Shown: positions 2,058 through 9,234 of the stretch, piece by piece
Layout: every line of letters begins with the position of its first letter
How positions within the stretch are numbered: position 1 is the first letter of the stretch
Notes under the pieces: model-generated
The model's database searches: none
What the model was told of the DNA's origin: nothing
The model's input: only the letters and a program-made list of their open reading frames with translations
From: Candidatus Latescibacterota bacterium
GTDB taxonomy: Bacteria; JAAXHH01; JABIQT01
NCBI GenBank assembly: GCA_018667995.1
Contig: JABIQT010000915.1
Span: 1-9,234 of the forward strand
Direction of reading: 5' to 3'
DNA: 9,234 nucleotides
Position numbers and translations under genes: made by a program

Positions 2058-5000
2058 TCAACCGAATGACTGAGAAATGAAGACCACGGTCTTCTCGATT
2101 GACACATTTCGCTGAAAATCTGAGACCGGGACATCGGTTTGGAGATCCTTTTGTATCTGGTTGCGCATTTCGACAGCCATTAGGGAATCCAACCCCAACT
2201 CCATCCAAGTCGCGGGCAAGCTGAAGTCGCCGCTATCGGCCTCCGTCACTCGTGACGCTAATTTCCTCAGATACCGCCTTATCTCTTCCAGACGCTCGAT
2301 CTCCGACATACTCCCGAAGTCAACCAACGTAACCTGATGCTCGTCATCTACCTGTGCCTCAACAGTGTGCCCGGCTGTAGCCAGCGTATTTTGGACCACC
2401 GCAATTTGAACCTCTGAAGAATCCAGAAGCAGTCCAAAAGCAGTTAGCGCCTGTTCCGGAAATAGAGTCTCGATCTCGGCATTGGTTTTCATGCCCGCCA
2501 TTCCCGTATCTTCCCATCCTGCCCAGTCTATGGATAAACCAGGCAAGCCTTTTGATCTTCGATACCGGGCGAGGCCGTCAAGGAATGCGTTGGCGGCGGC
2601 ATATCCTACCTGGCCGATCGTGCCGGTCAGCGCCGAAATCGAAGAAAACAGCACGAAAAACTCCAGATCCATCTGTTCGGTTAATTCGTGAAGGTGCCAC
2701 CCGCCTTCGACTTTGGGCGCAAGAACACTCCGCAACCGCTCCGGAGTCTGATTTATCATGAGTCCGTCGTCGAGGACGCCTGCTGCGTGAATGACGCCGC
2801 CAAGCGGACCCGGAGATTGTGACGCCCGAACAATTACCTGGGAGAGTGCGTCTCTATTGGTAATATCTATGACAGCCACTTCAATTTGCACGCCCTCACT
2901 CCGCAGCCGGTCAATCAACGCGGAGCTATGGGCATCGGGTTCATGATGTCCTATCAACACAAGATGCCGATCGCCATTGTCGTAGAACCACTGTGTCAAC
3001 AGGCGGCCCAAGGCGCCGAAAGCGCCACTTATCAATACACTCCGATCCACCCGACAAACTGACTTTGGCGGAGACAGGACCTCTATAGGAGTCTCGTTGG
3101 CGGAAAGTACGATTTTACCAATATGATCTGGTTCGGACATGCGTTGAAAGGCCCGCCGGACATCCTGAAAGGCGAACTCGGCGGTGGGGATCGGTGAGAG
3201 TTTCTCATCATCAAAAAGATTGAGACAATCTGCCAGAATCCTGCCTACGGTTTCCGGATCATCTCGCCAGCGTCGCGCGAGGTCGACTGCAATGAACGAG
3301 ATTCCACGATCGAATACCCCGAGAGAAATAGAACGATTAGCCTGTATGTCTGCTTTGCCGAGTTCAATGAACCGACCGTCCGCAGCTACCAAACCGAGAC
3401 TTATTTCAAAAGCGTCATCCGCGAGAGAGTTCATAACTACGTCGACACCGTAACCGTCAGTCGCCGCTCTGACTTCATCTGCGAATGTTAGACTTCGGGA
3501 GTCCATAACGTGCAGGATACCCGCGTCCCTGAGAAACTGCCTCTTCATCTCGCTTCCAGCTGTGGCCAAGATCTCAGCTCCGGCATATCGGGCAACCTGA
3601 ATGGCCGCGAGCCCAACCCCACCGGATGCGGAGTGAATCAGTACCTTTTCGCCTGGCCGTATCCGGGCCTGATGTATGAGCCCATACCATGCGGTCAGGA
3701 AAACAACCGGAATACCCGCCCCCTGAATCACAGAAAGTGCGCCCGGCAATGGAAAGACGAGCGAAGCATGCGCGATTGTATGAGAACCTATCGAAGCAGT
3801 GGCGATTGCCATCACAGTCTCGCCCTTTTTTAGGTGTCGCACCCCTGGTCCTACAGCCGTAACTCTACCAGCGCACTCCCATCCGAAAGCGGGCAGACCC
3901 TGTAACTCCACGGCCGTCAATAGTCCAAATGCCGTCATCACGTCCCGGAAATTCACGCCTGAGGCCTCTATCTGAATTTCGACTTCTCCCTTTTGTGGTG
4001 CGGCGCGGGAGACGCTGTAATACCCTAAATCATCCAGCAGACCCGGGCTAGTCATGCTGAGACGCCAGGGCCTATCTCGGGCAGATGTCATCACAGATGA
4101 TTCGGAGGCACGGCCCAGATCAGGTTTCTTTGTTCCCTTCAGAGAACGTGTGTAACGCTTCCCGCTGCGATATGCGATTTCAGGGCCCGTCTGTGCCTGT
4201 TGAATCTCCTGAACAATCGTCGGTAGTGAAAGATCATCAAAATCAATCAATGTAGGTGAGAATTCCGTGTGTTCGTTCGCCATCACCCTGAGCACTCCAG
4301 GAAGGATGGACTGTGACACATTTATCATTTCATCTTCGATCACGCCACAGGCCCTGCTCGTAATGACCCAGACTCGAAATTCATTACGCGGAGTACATGC
4401 GGCAGCGGCCCGCACGATACGGAGGATCCGGAAGATCCCGCGGCGATAGACTTGCTCAAAATCAGAGAGTCGACCCGTTTCATCCACAGGGGAACAGGCA
4501 TCCGCCAGGAAAACTACATGGCAAAGTGGCGTTGCGGCATCACGCGAGACTTCCTTGAACAGGCTGGCATAGTCCTCATCACTGTCTAGGTTAATCTCAA
4601 ATTCGTCCTCACCGATTTCCTCGAAATGCGATCCAGATCGGGCTCTGATCAACTTCTGATGGGGCGGAACCGTCCCGTTCTCCAGAATCTCCTGATTCTG
4701 TATCAACACGACGGAAGAACGAAGAGGCTCTTCCGATTTCGGCAAAGACGTTGGCTGCCAATGCTCCCTAAGATACTTCAGGGGCATTGATGTTCCTATC
4801 TGCCCAAGAGGTTGGAGAACCGCGCCGCGCACCGATAGCAGTATTGATCCACCAGCATCGCTAATTGAGAATTCTCCGTGTACGATTCCAGGTTGCCTCT
4901 CAGTGACGGAGGCCTTCACAGTGAGGGGATCCCGTGGGCCCTGTAAAATCTGGCCACGAACTATTTCTGCTGCGCCGGTGGGTAACCACAGACGCCTATC

Positions 5001-8000
5001 CAGCGAGGCTGACATTGTAAGGGCCTGGAAACCGGCATCGATGAGCGTAGATTCCATCCGAAAGGGATGTTCGTTTGACCAGTTCTCCAAGAATGCATGT
5101 GTGTGTGAATCGGTATAGCGAGCCCGTTCAATTTTCCGGAATGACAATCCGTAAATCATGCTCCGCTGCCGCATGCTCGCGTAGTATTGATCGCCATTGA
5201 CGGCCACCGCGATCTCCGATAGTTCAGGCACACTTGGAGTACCGATCTGGCCTTTCGCTGATCCGATTGAAGCGATGACATGCCTCGTCCAGGGCGTATT
5301 CTGCACGGCGCGGCGTGTGCTGATTTCAACACGAGTGACGTCGGCATGCACATTTAGTACGGTCTGACAGATCCGAGGCTCATCGTCCTCAAAGAGGCAA
5401 GGGGCTAAGATCTCAAAATCCTCTATGCCCAATGACATATCCCAATCAAGGAAATCCAGACACTGGAAAATGATCTCAATATAAACTGCGGCTGCTATTA
5501 CCACCTTTCCACGGATTCTGTGATCCGTTAGAAAGGTCTGGCTATCTGGATCCAGCGTGGTTTCCAGCAGATGGCATTTACCTGTCCCCGGTGCGACCAT
5601 GTGACGCATGGCCAGCCCGCTTCGCCCATTGCCCCCTGAAGGATGATCACCCATTACTACCGAGGGGAGCCAGTAACTCTTCTTCCGCCAGGGATATGTG
5701 GGGAGGGACACATGGGGGCGGACCTCTGGATAAAGTGACAGGAGATTTACGTCAATACCCAGGGAATATAGGGATCCCAGCGATTTTAGATGAGTGCGTT
5801 GCTCCGGTTCATCACGACGGATGCTGGCAAGAACCACTCCTGACTGAGCGTGATGTGAGAGATTCTCAGTGATGGCCTGAGACAATACAGGATGCGGGCC
5901 GATCTGGAGGTAGACGAGGCCAGGATCGCCACAGAGCTGATCCATGGCAAGGTCCAAGCGAACAGGCATTCGCATATTGCCCCACCAGTATTCCGCATCT
6001 AACTCTCCCTCCTGAACGACTCGGCCAGTAACAGAGGATATCATTGGACGACTGCCCGCCCCGGGTTTGAGGTCCAGCAAGCCGGCAATAAACCGATCCC
6101 GCAGCGGATCAAGACGGTTGCTGTGGTAGGCAACGTCCACTTCCAGGCGACGATTGAAAATCTCATCATGGTCGAAGTCGGATGCCAACGATTTCAGGTC
6201 GTCCGCGTTTCCTGCCAAAGTCACAGAGACAGGGCTGTTGACCGCGGCAATCGAGACGGTACCATTCAGATGGCCAATGGCCTTTTCGGCCTCGGCGAAG
6301 GAGATAGCCACAGCCATCATTGCGCCGTGACCAGCGACCTCTTCTTGCAGCGTACCGCGCAGACTACATATTCTCAGTCCCTCCTCCAAACTCAGGAATC
6401 CTGCCACCACAGCGGCCGCAATCTCACCTACACTGTGGCCCACCACACAATCAGGAACTACCCCTCTGGAACTCCAGAGGTCGGTCAGCGCTATCTGCAG
6501 GGCGAAATTGGCTGGTTGAGAAATTCTCGTTTCGAGGATTCGAGATTCGGTCTCCTCCATCAATAATTCGTCAATGAGTGACCAATCAACAAGGTTGCGC
6601 AGTATGGCATCGCAACGACCTATTGCATCTCTGTATACCTGTTCGCTCTCGAACAGATCAAGCCCCATTCTCCACCACTGCGGCCCCATTCCGGTGAATA
6701 CAAAGGCCGATTTTGCATCGGGACGGACCATTCCGCCAATGAGATCGGGATGTGGCCGGCCAGCGGCAAGCGCTTCAAATTTCGGTTTTAGGTCATCGCC
6801 AGGTTCGAACACCAAGGCCGCCCGATAGCGGTGTGATCGATAGCGGGAAACGGCGCTGATGGCAAGATTTGTACTCGACACGTCATCTGAGTGTGCCAGG
6901 CCAGCCATTGCGGCCCCCAGATCTCGTAGTGAAGAGGGATGTTCAGCACAGAGTGGGACAAGCCCCGGAAGTAGAGGAGGAGATGCTGGGCTCTGTTCTT
7001 CGACGACGCCCTGAAGCACGATATGGGCGTTGACTCCGCCAAAGCCGAAAGAGTTTACCCCTGCGACTATTTCTTCGCGCCTGCCACTCAGAGATTCGTT
7101 TTCGCTGCAAATACGGAGCCCCAGTTGGTCAAAGGGTATTCTGGCGTTGGGCGAGCCACAATGGATGCTCTTCGGCAAATATTGGTAATGAATCGCCAAA
7201 GCGGCCTTAATGAGTCCGGCCACACCGGATGCCGCCTCCGCATGACCAATGTTAGATTTCACCGAACCGATCAGGCAAGCTGCCCCGGGCTCACGTCCGA
7301 GCCCCAGGATTTCACCCAGAGCTTGCGCCTCCACGGGATCTCCCACAGGCGTACCAGGTCCGTGGGCCTCGACGAATCGTACACTGGAAGTGGAAATACC
7401 AGCCTGTCCATATACGTCAGTGAGCATCTTCTTCTGCGCTTGAACAGACGGTACCGTAATCCCAGCAGTACGACCATCCTGATTGACAGCACTTCCCTTG
7501 ATTACCGCATATATCGGATCTTTGTCGGCACGAGCTGCCAGAAGCTGTTTGAGGACGACGATTCCTGCCCCGTCGCTCCTGACATAGCCATCCGCCGATG
7601 CGTCAAATGGACTGCATCTGCCTATTTCGGATATCATGGAAGCTTGCTGGAAGCCCGCTGTAGTTTGAGGCGACAGGAGGAGGTTTACGCCACCGGCGAG
7701 GGCCATGGTGGACTCCCCGGATCGTATGCTCTGGCAGGCAAGGTGGACGGCCACAAGAGAGGAAGAACAGGCCGTGTCGATAGACATACTCGGCCCCCGA
7801 AAATCGAAGGTATACGAAATTCGGTTTGCAGCAATACTCATTGTTCCGCCGGTATTCGTATGCGCCGTCACATCGCTACCGGTGTACCTCTGCATATCCC
7901 AGTATTCATCAAGAAATATTCCAATGAATACACCTATGGGCGCACCCCGAAGGCTGTCTGGCAATAATCCAGCGTCCTCAAGGGATTCGTATGCGATTTC

Positions 8001-8339
8001 AAGGAGTAATCGATGTTGAGGATCTATCGAGCGAGCTTCGCGGGGAGCAATACCAAAGAAATCGGCATCAAATTTCTCGATATCATCCAGGTAACCGCCA
8101 CGTGGCCGTTGGGAGACCAGATCTCTTCCGTATCGTCCGGCGAGAAGTTCCCGGCGGTTATCAGGCATTTCAGTGACGGCATCAAAACCGTCGGTCAATC
8201 TGTCCCAGAACTGTGCCGGGGAACCACAATCACCCGGCAGCCGGCAACCGATACCGATGATGGCGATATCACCATCAAAGACCTCGTCATCGAGCGACAT
8301 GGAAGGGTCGTGTCTTTGAGTTCCACTCATGATGCCCAT
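2058..8339 (-). CDS. Type I polyketide synthase, single fully reducing module KS-AT-DH-psiKR-ER-KR-ACP
   Basis: A 2093-residue synthase that extends an acyl chain and reduces each beta-carbon fully. The KS (about 25-445) has Cys191 in DTACSSS, His326 in EAHGPGT and His366 in SNIGHAEA. The AT (about 545-850) has Ser636 in GHSVGE, Arg661 exactly 25 residues later, and His739 in VAYHS. The DH (about 920-1185) has His940, Asp1101 and Gln1105 of DxxxQ. Residues 1205-1395 look like a structural pseudo-KR with no methyltransferase motif. The ER (about 1425-1745) has GVNFRDVM and HSASGGVG. The KR (about 1765-1950) has GxxGxxG, LDD (1856-1858, B-type), Lys1876, Ser1900, Tyr1913 and Asn1917. The ACP (about 2010-2093) has Ser2052 in GLDSL for phosphopantetheine. 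There is no thioesterase, reductase, loading module or docking segment. The start is uncertain: this is the longest ATG form, but the ATG at 8330 has better ribosome-site spacing, and one at 8300 is also possible. It overlaps the end of the upstream transferase gene, so the two are probably co-transcribed. Product and starter unit cannot be read from the sequence. Confidence 0.97.
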   Translation of the reverse strand: MGIMSGTQRHDPSMSLDDEVFDGDIAIIGIGCRLPGDCGSPAQFWDRLTDGFDAVTEMPDNRRELLAGRYGRDLVSQRPRGGYLDDIEKFDADFFGIAPREARSIDPQHRLLLEIAYESLEDAGLLPDSLRGAPIGVFIGIFLDEYWDMQRYTGSDVTAHTNTGGTMSIAANRISYTFDFRGPSMSIDTACSSSLVAVHLACQSIRSGESTMALAGGVNLLLSPQTTAGFQQASMISEIGRCSPFDASADGYVRSDGAGIVVLKQLLAARADKDPIYAVIKGSAVNQDGRTAGITVPSVQAQKKMLTDVYGQAGISTSSVRFVEAHGPGTPVGDPVEAQALGEILGLGREPGAACLIGSVKSNIGHAEAASGVAGLIKAALAIHYQYLPKSIHCGSPNARIPFDQLGLRICSENESLSGRREEIVAGVNSFGFGGVNAHIVLQGVVEEQSPASPPLLPGLVPLCAEHPSSLRDLGAAMAGLAHSDDVSSTNLAISAVSRYRSHRYRAALVFEPGDDLKPKFEALAAGRPHPDLIGGMVRPDAKSAFVFTGMGPQWWRMGLDLFESEQVYRDAIGRCDAILRNLVDWSLIDELLMEETESRILETRISQPANFALQIALTDLWSSRGVVPDCVVGHSVGEIAAAVVAGFLSLEEGLRICSLRGTLQEEVAGHGAMMAVAISFAEAEKAIGHLNGTVSIAAVNSPVSVTLAGNADDLKSLASDFDHDEIFNRRLEVDVAYHSNRLDPLRDRFIAGLLDLKPGAGSRPMISSVTGRVVQEGELDAEYWWGNMRMPVRLDLAMDQLCGDPGLVYLQIGPHPVLSQAITENLSHHAQSGVVLASIRRDEPEQRTHLKSLGSLYSLGIDVNLLSLYPEVRPHVSLPTYPWRKKSYWLPSVVMGDHPSGGNGRSGLAMRHMVAPGTGKCHLLETTLDPDSQTFLTDHRIRGKVVIAAAVYIEIIFQCLDFLDWDMSLGIEDFEILAPCLFEDDEPRICQTVLNVHADVTRVEISTRRAVQNTPWTRHVIASIGSAKGQIGTPSVPELSEIAVAVNGDQYYASMRQRSMIYGLSFRKIERARYTDSHTHAFLENWSNEHPFRMESTLIDAGFQALTMSASLDRRLWLPTGAAEIVRGQILQGPRDPLTVKASVTERQPGIVHGEFSISDAGGSILLSVRGAVLQPLGQIGTSMPLKYLREHWQPTSLPKSEEPLRSSVVLIQNQEILENGTVPPHQKLIRARSGSHFEEIGEDEFEINLDSDEDYASLFKEVSRDAATPLCHVVFLADACSPVDETGRLSDFEQVYRRGIFRILRIVRAAAACTPRNEFRVWVITSRACGVIEDEMINVSQSILPGVLRVMANEHTEFSPTLIDFDDLSLPTIVQEIQQAQTGPEIAYRSGKRYTRSLKGTKKPDLGRASESSVMTSARDRPWRLSMTSPGLLDDLGYYSVSRAAPQKGEVEIQIEASGVNFRDVMTAFGLLTAVELQGLPAFGWECAGRVTAVGPGVRHLKKGETVMAIATASIGSHTIAHASLVFPLPGALSVIQGAGIPVVFLTAWYGLIHQARIRPGEKVLIHSASGGVGLAAIQVARYAGAEILATAGSEMKRQFLRDAGILHVMDSRSLTFADEVRAATDGYGVDVVMNSLADDAFEISLGLVAADGRFIELGKADIQANRSISLGVFDRGISFIAVDLARRWRDDPETVGRILADCLNLFDDEKLSPIPTAEFAFQDVRRAFQRMSEPDHIGKIVLSANETPIEVLSPPKSVCRVDRSVLISGAFGALGRLLTQWFYDNGDRHLVLIGHHEPDAHSSALIDRLRSEGVQIEVAVIDITNRDALSQVIVRASQSPGPLGGVIHAAGVLDDGLMINQTPERLRSVLAPKVEGGWHLHELTEQMDLEFFVLFSSISALTGTIGQVGYAAANAFLDGLARYRRSKGLPGLSIDWAGWEDTGMAGMKTNAEIETLFPEQALTAFGLLLDSSEVQIAVVQNTLATAGHTVEAQVDDEHQVTLVDFGSMSEIERLEEIRRYLRKLASRVTEADSGDFSLPATWMELGLDSLMAVEMRNQIQKDLQTDVPVSDFQRNVSIEKTVVFISQSFG

Positions 8340-9144
8340 ACTTCCCGGTGGAAAGGCGTGCGACTGCGATTTCTTCCTGAGCCGTCAGTGGTTGATCAAT
8401 GAAGGAAACCTCCAGCCCGGACTCGAATCCGTGTCTGACCAGGGGCGTCATCTCCTCAGGGGCGACAGATCTGCCCAGAATTTCGGAGACGTCGATAGTT
8501 CTATCATTGAGCATTGCGGCCAGTTCAGCGCGTTCTGCATGGCGGCGGTTGGGTAGCAGCAACGGGAGACGCTTGTGATCGGGGCCCAACAGAATCGATC
8601 CATGCTGGAGGACCGCGCCCCGAGCCCTTCTCTGAGCACTGCCAGCTATCTTCTTTCCGCTGACCACCAGCTCAAACCGCGCGGCATAGGAGAAGCAAGC
8701 GCCGGCACTACCTTCCGGTGTACTGTCAGGTGCCTCTGCGAGTTCGACAGGTACACCCACCTCTTCTAAGGCTGTCTGCAATGATTCGCTCACTCGTCGA
8801 TACGTCTCGTAGGCACTGTTTCCGATTGCAGGATGGCCTTCAGGCGCGATTACGCTATATGTCAACTCGCAGCCATGCAACACTGTCCGGCCGCCCGTTT
8901 GCCGCCGAATAACATCGATGCCGTACATAGCACACTTTTCAGGATCAATCTCTTCATGCAGGATCTGTGCATAGCCAAGTGACACCGCAGGGGGGCTCCA
9001 GCTGTATACTCGAATTGTGGGCGGAACGGAACCCGACCGGACCTCATCGGTGACGGCCTCGTCAACGGCCATATTGTAAACTGCGGTACCGGGACCTGAG
9101 TCTAGAAACCGCCAATGGGATAAAGCATCAATGAAGGCGGACAT
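8287..9144 (-). CDS. lipM: LipM-like octanoyl/lipoyl protein transferase (biotin/lipoate A/B ligase family)
   Basis: A 285-residue cytoplasmic protein of the biotin/lipoate A/B ligase family. LipM moves an octanoyl group from acyl carrier protein, via a cysteine thioester, to a lysine of GcvH or another lipoyl domain in lipoate synthesis. Supporting motifs are WRFLDSG (11-17), NMAVDEA (24-30), RRQTGGRTVLH (80-90), ELTYSV (93-98), SGKKIAGSAQ (162-171) and LQHGSILL (179-186), and the C-terminal KYGHHEWN (268-275) is also typical. Cys150, in GACF, sits where LipM has its nucleophile. This, with GGR rather than the GGG usual in ATP-dependent LplA ligases, favours transferase over ligase. The length matches LipM (about 280). 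The ATG at 9144 is the first start after an in-frame TAA a dozen codons upstream. It has no good Shine-Dalgarno, since the preceding bases are pyrimidine-rich. Its last codons overlap the PKS start. It may serve ordinary lipoylation or act on the PKS product; the sequence alone does not decide. The symbol is a family-level assignment. Confidence 0.85.
   Translation of the reverse strand: MSAFIDALSHWRFLDSGPGTAVYNMAVDEAVTDEVRSGSVPPTIRVYSWSPPAVSLGYAQILHEEIDPEKCAMYGIDVIRRQTGGRTVLHGCELTYSVIAPEGHPAIGNSAYETYRRVSESLQTALEEVGVPVELAEAPDSTPEGSAGACFSYAARFELVVSGKKIAGSAQRRARGAVLQHGSILLGPDHKRLPLLLPNRRHAERAELAAMLNDRTIDVSEILGRSVAPEEMTPLVRHGFESGLEVSFIDQPLTAQEEIAVARLSTGKYGHHEWNSKTRPFHVAR
8341..8346 (-). promoter_or_regulatory. 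Candidate ribosome binding site for the PKS gene
   Basis: On the - strand GGGAAG lies inside the 3' end of the lipM-like gene. It is 10 bases before the ATG at 8330 but only one base before the ATG at 8339. The spacing favours translation from 8330, giving a protein that begins MSGTQR, three residues shorter than the longest form. The match to a Shine-Dalgarno is partial. Because the site lies within translated upstream sequence, terminating ribosomes could help initiation. Confidence 0.4.
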
Positions 9145-9234
9145 GGGGAGGATTCGTGGTATGAAAGGGAACGGGGGTTAACTTCACCTGCAACGGGCCA
9201 GGTCACTCACTCTCTGACGCCAAAAGATTCAGGC
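9145..9234 (-). other. Short leader upstream of the lipM-like gene
   Basis: Ninety bases upstream of the transferase start, running to the window edge. An in-frame TAA closes the reading frame just upstream of the ATG. No gene, convincing -10/-35 pair or riboswitch was recognised. It may contain the promoter of the lipM-PKS pair, but the sequence does not show it clearly. Confidence 0.35.

Follow-up and report, generated by a model that had tools for sequence, protein, structure and literature searches.

A lipM-type octanoyltransferase gene overlapping a fully reducing polyketide synthase gene, conserved in a lineage of Candidatus Latescibacterota

The 9,234-nucleotide stretch of Candidatus Latescibacterota DNA analysed here (the window, which is the whole of contig C469 of genome G000; genome size 6.06 Mb, 85% complete) raises the question of whether a lipoylation-type acyltransferase and a polyketide synthase (PKS), encoded by overlapping genes, act on the same acyl chain. 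The original prediction for this locus described a LipM-like gene that overlaps and precedes a reducing PKS gene, and two such open reading frames were indeed found on the minus strand, overlapping out of frame (Table 1). Three readings had been put forward with it: that the transferase unloads the PKS, that the PKS supplies a dedicated acyl group for lipoylation, or that a housekeeping lipM lies next to the PKS by chance.

The window LipM was found to be a single-domain protein with the LplA/LipB catalytic fold, both by profile search (PF21948, E 2.4e-38) and by its AlphaFold model (pLDDT 90.1). The best match of the model in the PDB was the lipoate-protein ligase 3r07 (Z 30.0, rmsd 2.5 over 250 residues), the LipB structures 2qhs and 1w66 scoring somewhat below the lipoate-protein ligases, and the protein gave no match at the cut-off of the NCBIfam LipB model TIGR00214. 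Cys150 and Lys165, the catalytic cysteine plus lysine of LipM, were invariant in all 39 aligned LipMs; the T. acidophilum ligase has no cysteine in the alignment stretch around the Cys150 position, and in the model Cys150 sits in a loop (residues 141–154) that belongs to its low-confidence part. The fold and the two conserved residues are shared with the B. subtilis LipM type, from which the gene here differs in being encoded in a fatty-acid operon, as read in the relatives, and in its overlap with a PKS gene. The B. subtilis enzyme modifies GcvH only (PMC6067878). Judged by fold, catalytic residues and ancestry, the window LipM most likely takes octanoyl from an acyl-ACP. In the same alignment, position 125 was Ala or Thr in all 14 PKS-linked LipMs and Gly in 22 of the 25 others; Ala167 was also considered as a signature residue of the PKS-linked proteins and rejected, as it was not universal among them. 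In the LipMs of three relatives (G007, G003 and G008; loci L045, L046 and L047) the first helix is followed by repetitive insertions of the RRDASRRDAG type, which vary in length.

The PKS is mono-modular, with the domain order KS-AT-DH-ER-KR-ACP, and its catalytic motifs were conserved in all linked members whose sequence covers them. The closest solved protein was mycocerosic acid synthase (9d2y, E 1.6e-267), which has the same order and likewise lacks a thioesterase. From what is known of this family, the linked PKS is expected to make a saturated chain. Domain searches found no thioesterase or reductase release domain in the window PKS, in agreement with the original prediction, and no release-type gene was found behind the linked PKS in the operon, which leaves lipM as the only adjacent candidate.

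Table 1. Features of the window, with coordinates on the forward strand and the basis of each assignment.
Feature	Position	Strand	Basis
Fully reducing mono-modular type I PKS, 2080 aa from homologous start codon	2058..8300	−	Domain matches; start by comparison with 14 relatives
C-terminal acyl carrier protein domain, with the GLDSL serine	2091..2273	−	Domain matches and motif alignment
Ketoreductase domain	2508..3038	−	Domain matches and motif alignment
Enoylreductase domain	3102..4055	−	Domain matches and motif alignment
Dehydratase domain	4800..5582	−	Domain matches and motif alignment
Acyltransferase domain, GHSVGE; VAYHS motif	5754..6704	−	Domain matches and motif alignment
Ketosynthase domain, Cys in DTACSSSL, two His	7011..8270	−	Domain matches and motif alignment
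lipM/PKS overlap, 14 bases (ATGTCGCTCGATGA)	8287..8300	−	PKS start homology; 11 bases in 14 relatives
LipM-type octanoyltransferase gene, 285 aa	8287..9144	−	PF21948 132.5 bits; AlphaFold model; invariant Cys150 and Lys165
Cys150 codon, predicted acyl-thioester nucleophile	8695..8697	−	Invariant in two alignments
Probable 3' end of rnc (RNase III), 9 codons and stop, ..LNLLASESE*	9203..9232	−	Resembles G001 RNase III C-terminus RLNLLPTMP*

The longest PKS reading frame (2058–8339, minus strand) would encode 2,093 aa, and the overlap of 44–53 bases that had been proposed for the two genes depends on a PKS start at the ATG at 8330 or 8339. Every one of the 14 relatives with the pair has its PKS start at an ATG inside the last His-Val codons of lipM (CAT GTC, or CAT GCC in a single case), which gives an overlap of 11 bases throughout. 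Since CATGTC is also present in the window, where one additional codon precedes the lipM stop, the PKS start was placed at 8300; the overlap itself stands, at a much shorter length than first proposed. The original prediction had described a candidate ribosome site within lipM; no convincing one was seen in front of 8300, and a start codon buried in the end of lipM together with the lack of such a site fits translational coupling from lipM to the PKS.

The lipM-PKS pairing is real, old and conserved. It was found in 15 of the 16 genomes of the phylum that were examined, including all 14 genomes (G002–G015) of family f3, and spans two families and four genera; a phylum-wide search returned the same 16 genomes as an order-wide one. 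There are few linked families, and fragmentation affects many of the genomes. Since 12 of the 15 belong to one genus, the independent support amounts to about four deep branches. The linked PKSs formed one clade in a KS-AT tree (support 100/99, 12 linked rows), and the linked LipMs one clade in a tree of LipM-like proteins only, without LplA or LipB rows (support 97/87, 14 linked rows), with the LipM of G001 as sister. G001, from family f2 of the same order, is the one genome without the pair: its rnc and intact lipM are followed by a different sequence with no PKS. The best PKS match of that genome (G001:C46) lies on another contig; as a copy of the linked PKS without lipM beside it, it would have broken the pairing, but tree and identities place it as a paralogue outside the linked clade. 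Outside the lineage, no PKS like that of the window was seen beside lipM among the best 80 of 555 LipM loci. This distribution is most simply explained by a single joining that was then inherited vertically, G001 having either branched off before it or lost the PKS. Some of the genomes of the relatives were deposited as Candidatus Latescibacterota or Gemmatimonadetes MAGs, and judging by isolate names and general knowledge the relatives are presumably mostly sponge-derived.

Chance neighbourhood, the null explanation of the original prediction, does not survive an overlapping pair that is kept in two families and forms single clades for both proteins. A weaker form of it would attribute the shared transcript solely to arrival of the PKS at the end of the fatty-acid operon, with neither a biochemical link nor a shared acyl pool. 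The intact lipM of G001 agrees with this, as does the presence of unrelated genes in the operon (rnc, sucCD, xylB and a sigma factor), but the overlap survived in both families at about 38% PKS identity, whereas the two families have different genes beyond the PKS (a helicase in the window, an amidohydrolase or an ion channel in the relatives). We consider such hitch-hiking improbable. The helicase of the window is DinG/Rad3-like; its gene (1–2013) is cut by the contig start and converges on the PKS gene, the two stops lying 44 bases apart.

In the 14 relatives, wherever the contig reaches far enough, lipM and the PKS form the 3' end of a fatty-acid operon, which in f3 consists of genes for a sigma factor, xylulokinase (xylB), sucC, sucD, yceD, fabD, fabG, fabF, rnc, lipM and the PKS; acpP presumably lies in the gap between fabG and fabF. 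The corresponding operon of G000 would lie beyond the end of contig C469; the ten codons visible in the 90 bases upstream of the window lipM are suggestive of the end of rnc, and in G001 the RNase III gene lies directly upstream of lipM. The same yceD-fabD-fabG-fabF-rnc-lipM order was found in Gemmatimonadota-like outgroups from other phyla (loci L052, L112, L113, L125 and L098), which differ in having no PKS behind lipM and, in several cases, a fabH within the operon. These five outgroup genomes (G039–G043) each encode a single LplA/LipB-family protein, and lipM is therefore their likely lipoylation enzyme. One LplA/LipB-family protein was also detected in each of G000 and G001, and G000 in addition has lipA. 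On this comparative evidence, lipM probably came to the PKS as an old housekeeping octanoyltransferase. Because lipM predates the PKS at this operon position, adjacency alone does not make it an off-loader of the PKS.

The explanation that we favour, to which we assign a probability of about 0.5, is that LipM keeps making octanoyl-protein from acyl-ACP and that the PKS is an operon-coupled second synthase of saturated chains. LipM would have been inherited as the last gene of a type II fatty-acid operon (fabD-fabG-fabF-rnc-lipM) and, going by what is known of its family, would pass octanoyl from an acyl carrier protein through a thioester on Cys150 to the lysines of lipoyl domains. The PKS gene would have been added once behind lipM, in the ancestor shared by the PKS-linked families, and with its start codon inside the last codons of lipM, ribosomes finishing the one gene could begin on the other. 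The PKS would then be an extra synthase, produced alongside the enzymes of the fatty-acid operon in a lineage where neither FabH nor PlsX was detected. This explanation is preferred to off-loading because the joining of the PKS to the operon end already accounts for the adjacency.

The fatty-acid gene content of the lineage bears on a second possibility, in which the type II pathway is incomplete and the PKS is a dedicated source of octanoyl for lipoylation, LipM drawing on the ACP of the PKS and not on AcpP. FabH was over its curated cut-off in none of the 15 PKS-linked genomes and, among the 16, only in G001; PlsX was found in none of the 16, and FabK was not found over its cut-off in the PKS-linked genomes. 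No FabI was found with the E. coli protein as query, in a search that had no positive control, and the enoyl-reductase evidence covers FabI and FabK only. FabZ was present in 13 of the 16 genomes, and in the one read from sequence (G002) it is fused behind LpxC (L148 1886–3442), between LpxD-like and LpxA-like genes. These findings, together with the overlap of the two genes, would suit a dedicated octanoyl supply. The operon nevertheless retains fabD, fabG and fabF, and lipoylation needs little octanoate, for which a synthase of 2,000 aa would be costly, so that we consider this possibility improbable. Loss of FabH by itself gives the PKS no priming role, since FabH-free initiation by malonyl-ACP decarboxylases occurs in Proteobacteria (PMC8666670). 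In G000–G015 the missing FabH bears on how chains are started (in the PKS-linked genomes) and the missing PlsX on how glycerol-3-phosphate is acylated (in all 16).

Off-loading of the PKS by LipM, in which the chain would move from the PKS ACP to Cys150 and on to a protein lysine, a small amine or AcpP, can be advanced only tentatively, but several observations point towards it. The overlapping pair has been kept in 15 genomes, and neither the PKS nor a gene behind it offers another means of release. In mycocerosic acid synthase, also built without a thioesterase, the chain is unloaded in trans by PapA5, a distinct acyltransferase (PMC5064953). In G013, a paralogous PKS is paired with its own release-type enzyme, one resembling BioF or serine palmitoyltransferase; given these two cases, a trans off-loader would be unsurprising. 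That the linked PKS operon offers no release partner but lipM, when the G013 paralogue has its own, also counts against the housekeeping reading. PapA5 differs in belonging to a dedicated lipid cluster and not to a fatty-acid operon, and it is not known to have the LplA fold.

Family f3 provides a further argument for off-loading. A second LplA/LipB-family protein was found in 13 of its 14 genomes and was over the TIGR00214 (LipB) cut-off in the three tested; at the loci read over sufficient length, its gene lies directly upstream of that for pyruvate dehydrogenase E1 alpha (e.g. L141 584–1273). With a separate LipB beside pyruvate dehydrogenase, LipM looks redundant for lipoylation in f3. Its distance to the outgroup was moreover 1.18–1.44 times that of the G001 LipM, against ratios of 0.87–1.05 for the operon neighbours YceD, FabD and RNC and 1.06–1.29 for FabG and FabF. 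Such faster divergence suggests a changed job and speaks against the housekeeping reading; it fits a relaxed or altered role, or a division of labour with, for example, LipM serving GcvH and LipB serving E2.

Against off-loading stand the presence of lipM at its operon position before the PKS came and the identity of its catalytic residues and most conserved positions with those of ordinary LipMs. The original prediction had asked for a second lipM or lipB for housekeeping lipoylation. Outside the family of the window, most f3 genomes have a second protein of this kind (a LipB in those tested), but none was found in G000, an absence that is weak evidence at 85% completeness. With the window LipM as the sole LplA/LipB-family protein found in that genome, and with its place among ordinary LipMs in the tree of LipM-like proteins, the result comes close to what the original prediction had itself named as speaking against its proposal. 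An extended version, which we regard as unlikely, would have a LipM-fold enzyme recruited as trans off-loader or as a shuttle of chains to AcpP, the PKS starting chains that the type II system finishes in a FabH-less phylum, and LipB taking over lipoylation in one family. The position of the pair in a fatty-acid operon, in a lineage without detectable FabH or PlsX, makes two ideas testable: a type I PKS that feeds or primes core lipid metabolism, and the lipoate-ligase fold as a PKS release enzyme.

No relevant paper on a LipM-PKS system was found among those searched. The swf and sup clusters resemble the present locus in encoding mono-modular PKSs from sponge-associated bacteria, and Latescibacterota MAGs are reported to contain swf-like clusters (PMC9426513). 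The swf cluster includes swfB (reductase and sulphotransferase) and swfC (radical SAM) (PMC3908369), neither of which was seen among the identified neighbours of the linked PKS. Other PKS genes were encountered in the same genomes. The G013 paralogue (G013:C174; L188 1842–9835) is apparently orthologous to a second PKS in G000 (G000:C629; L185), with 66% identity over KS-AT, and in G013 it is followed by the BioF/serine-palmitoyltransferase-like enzyme and an HpnA-like epimerase, possibly part of a sphingolipid-like pathway. A further PKS, roughly 3,500 aa long and matched twice by KS, is encoded in most genomes of the main f3 genus (L173–L182 and related loci).
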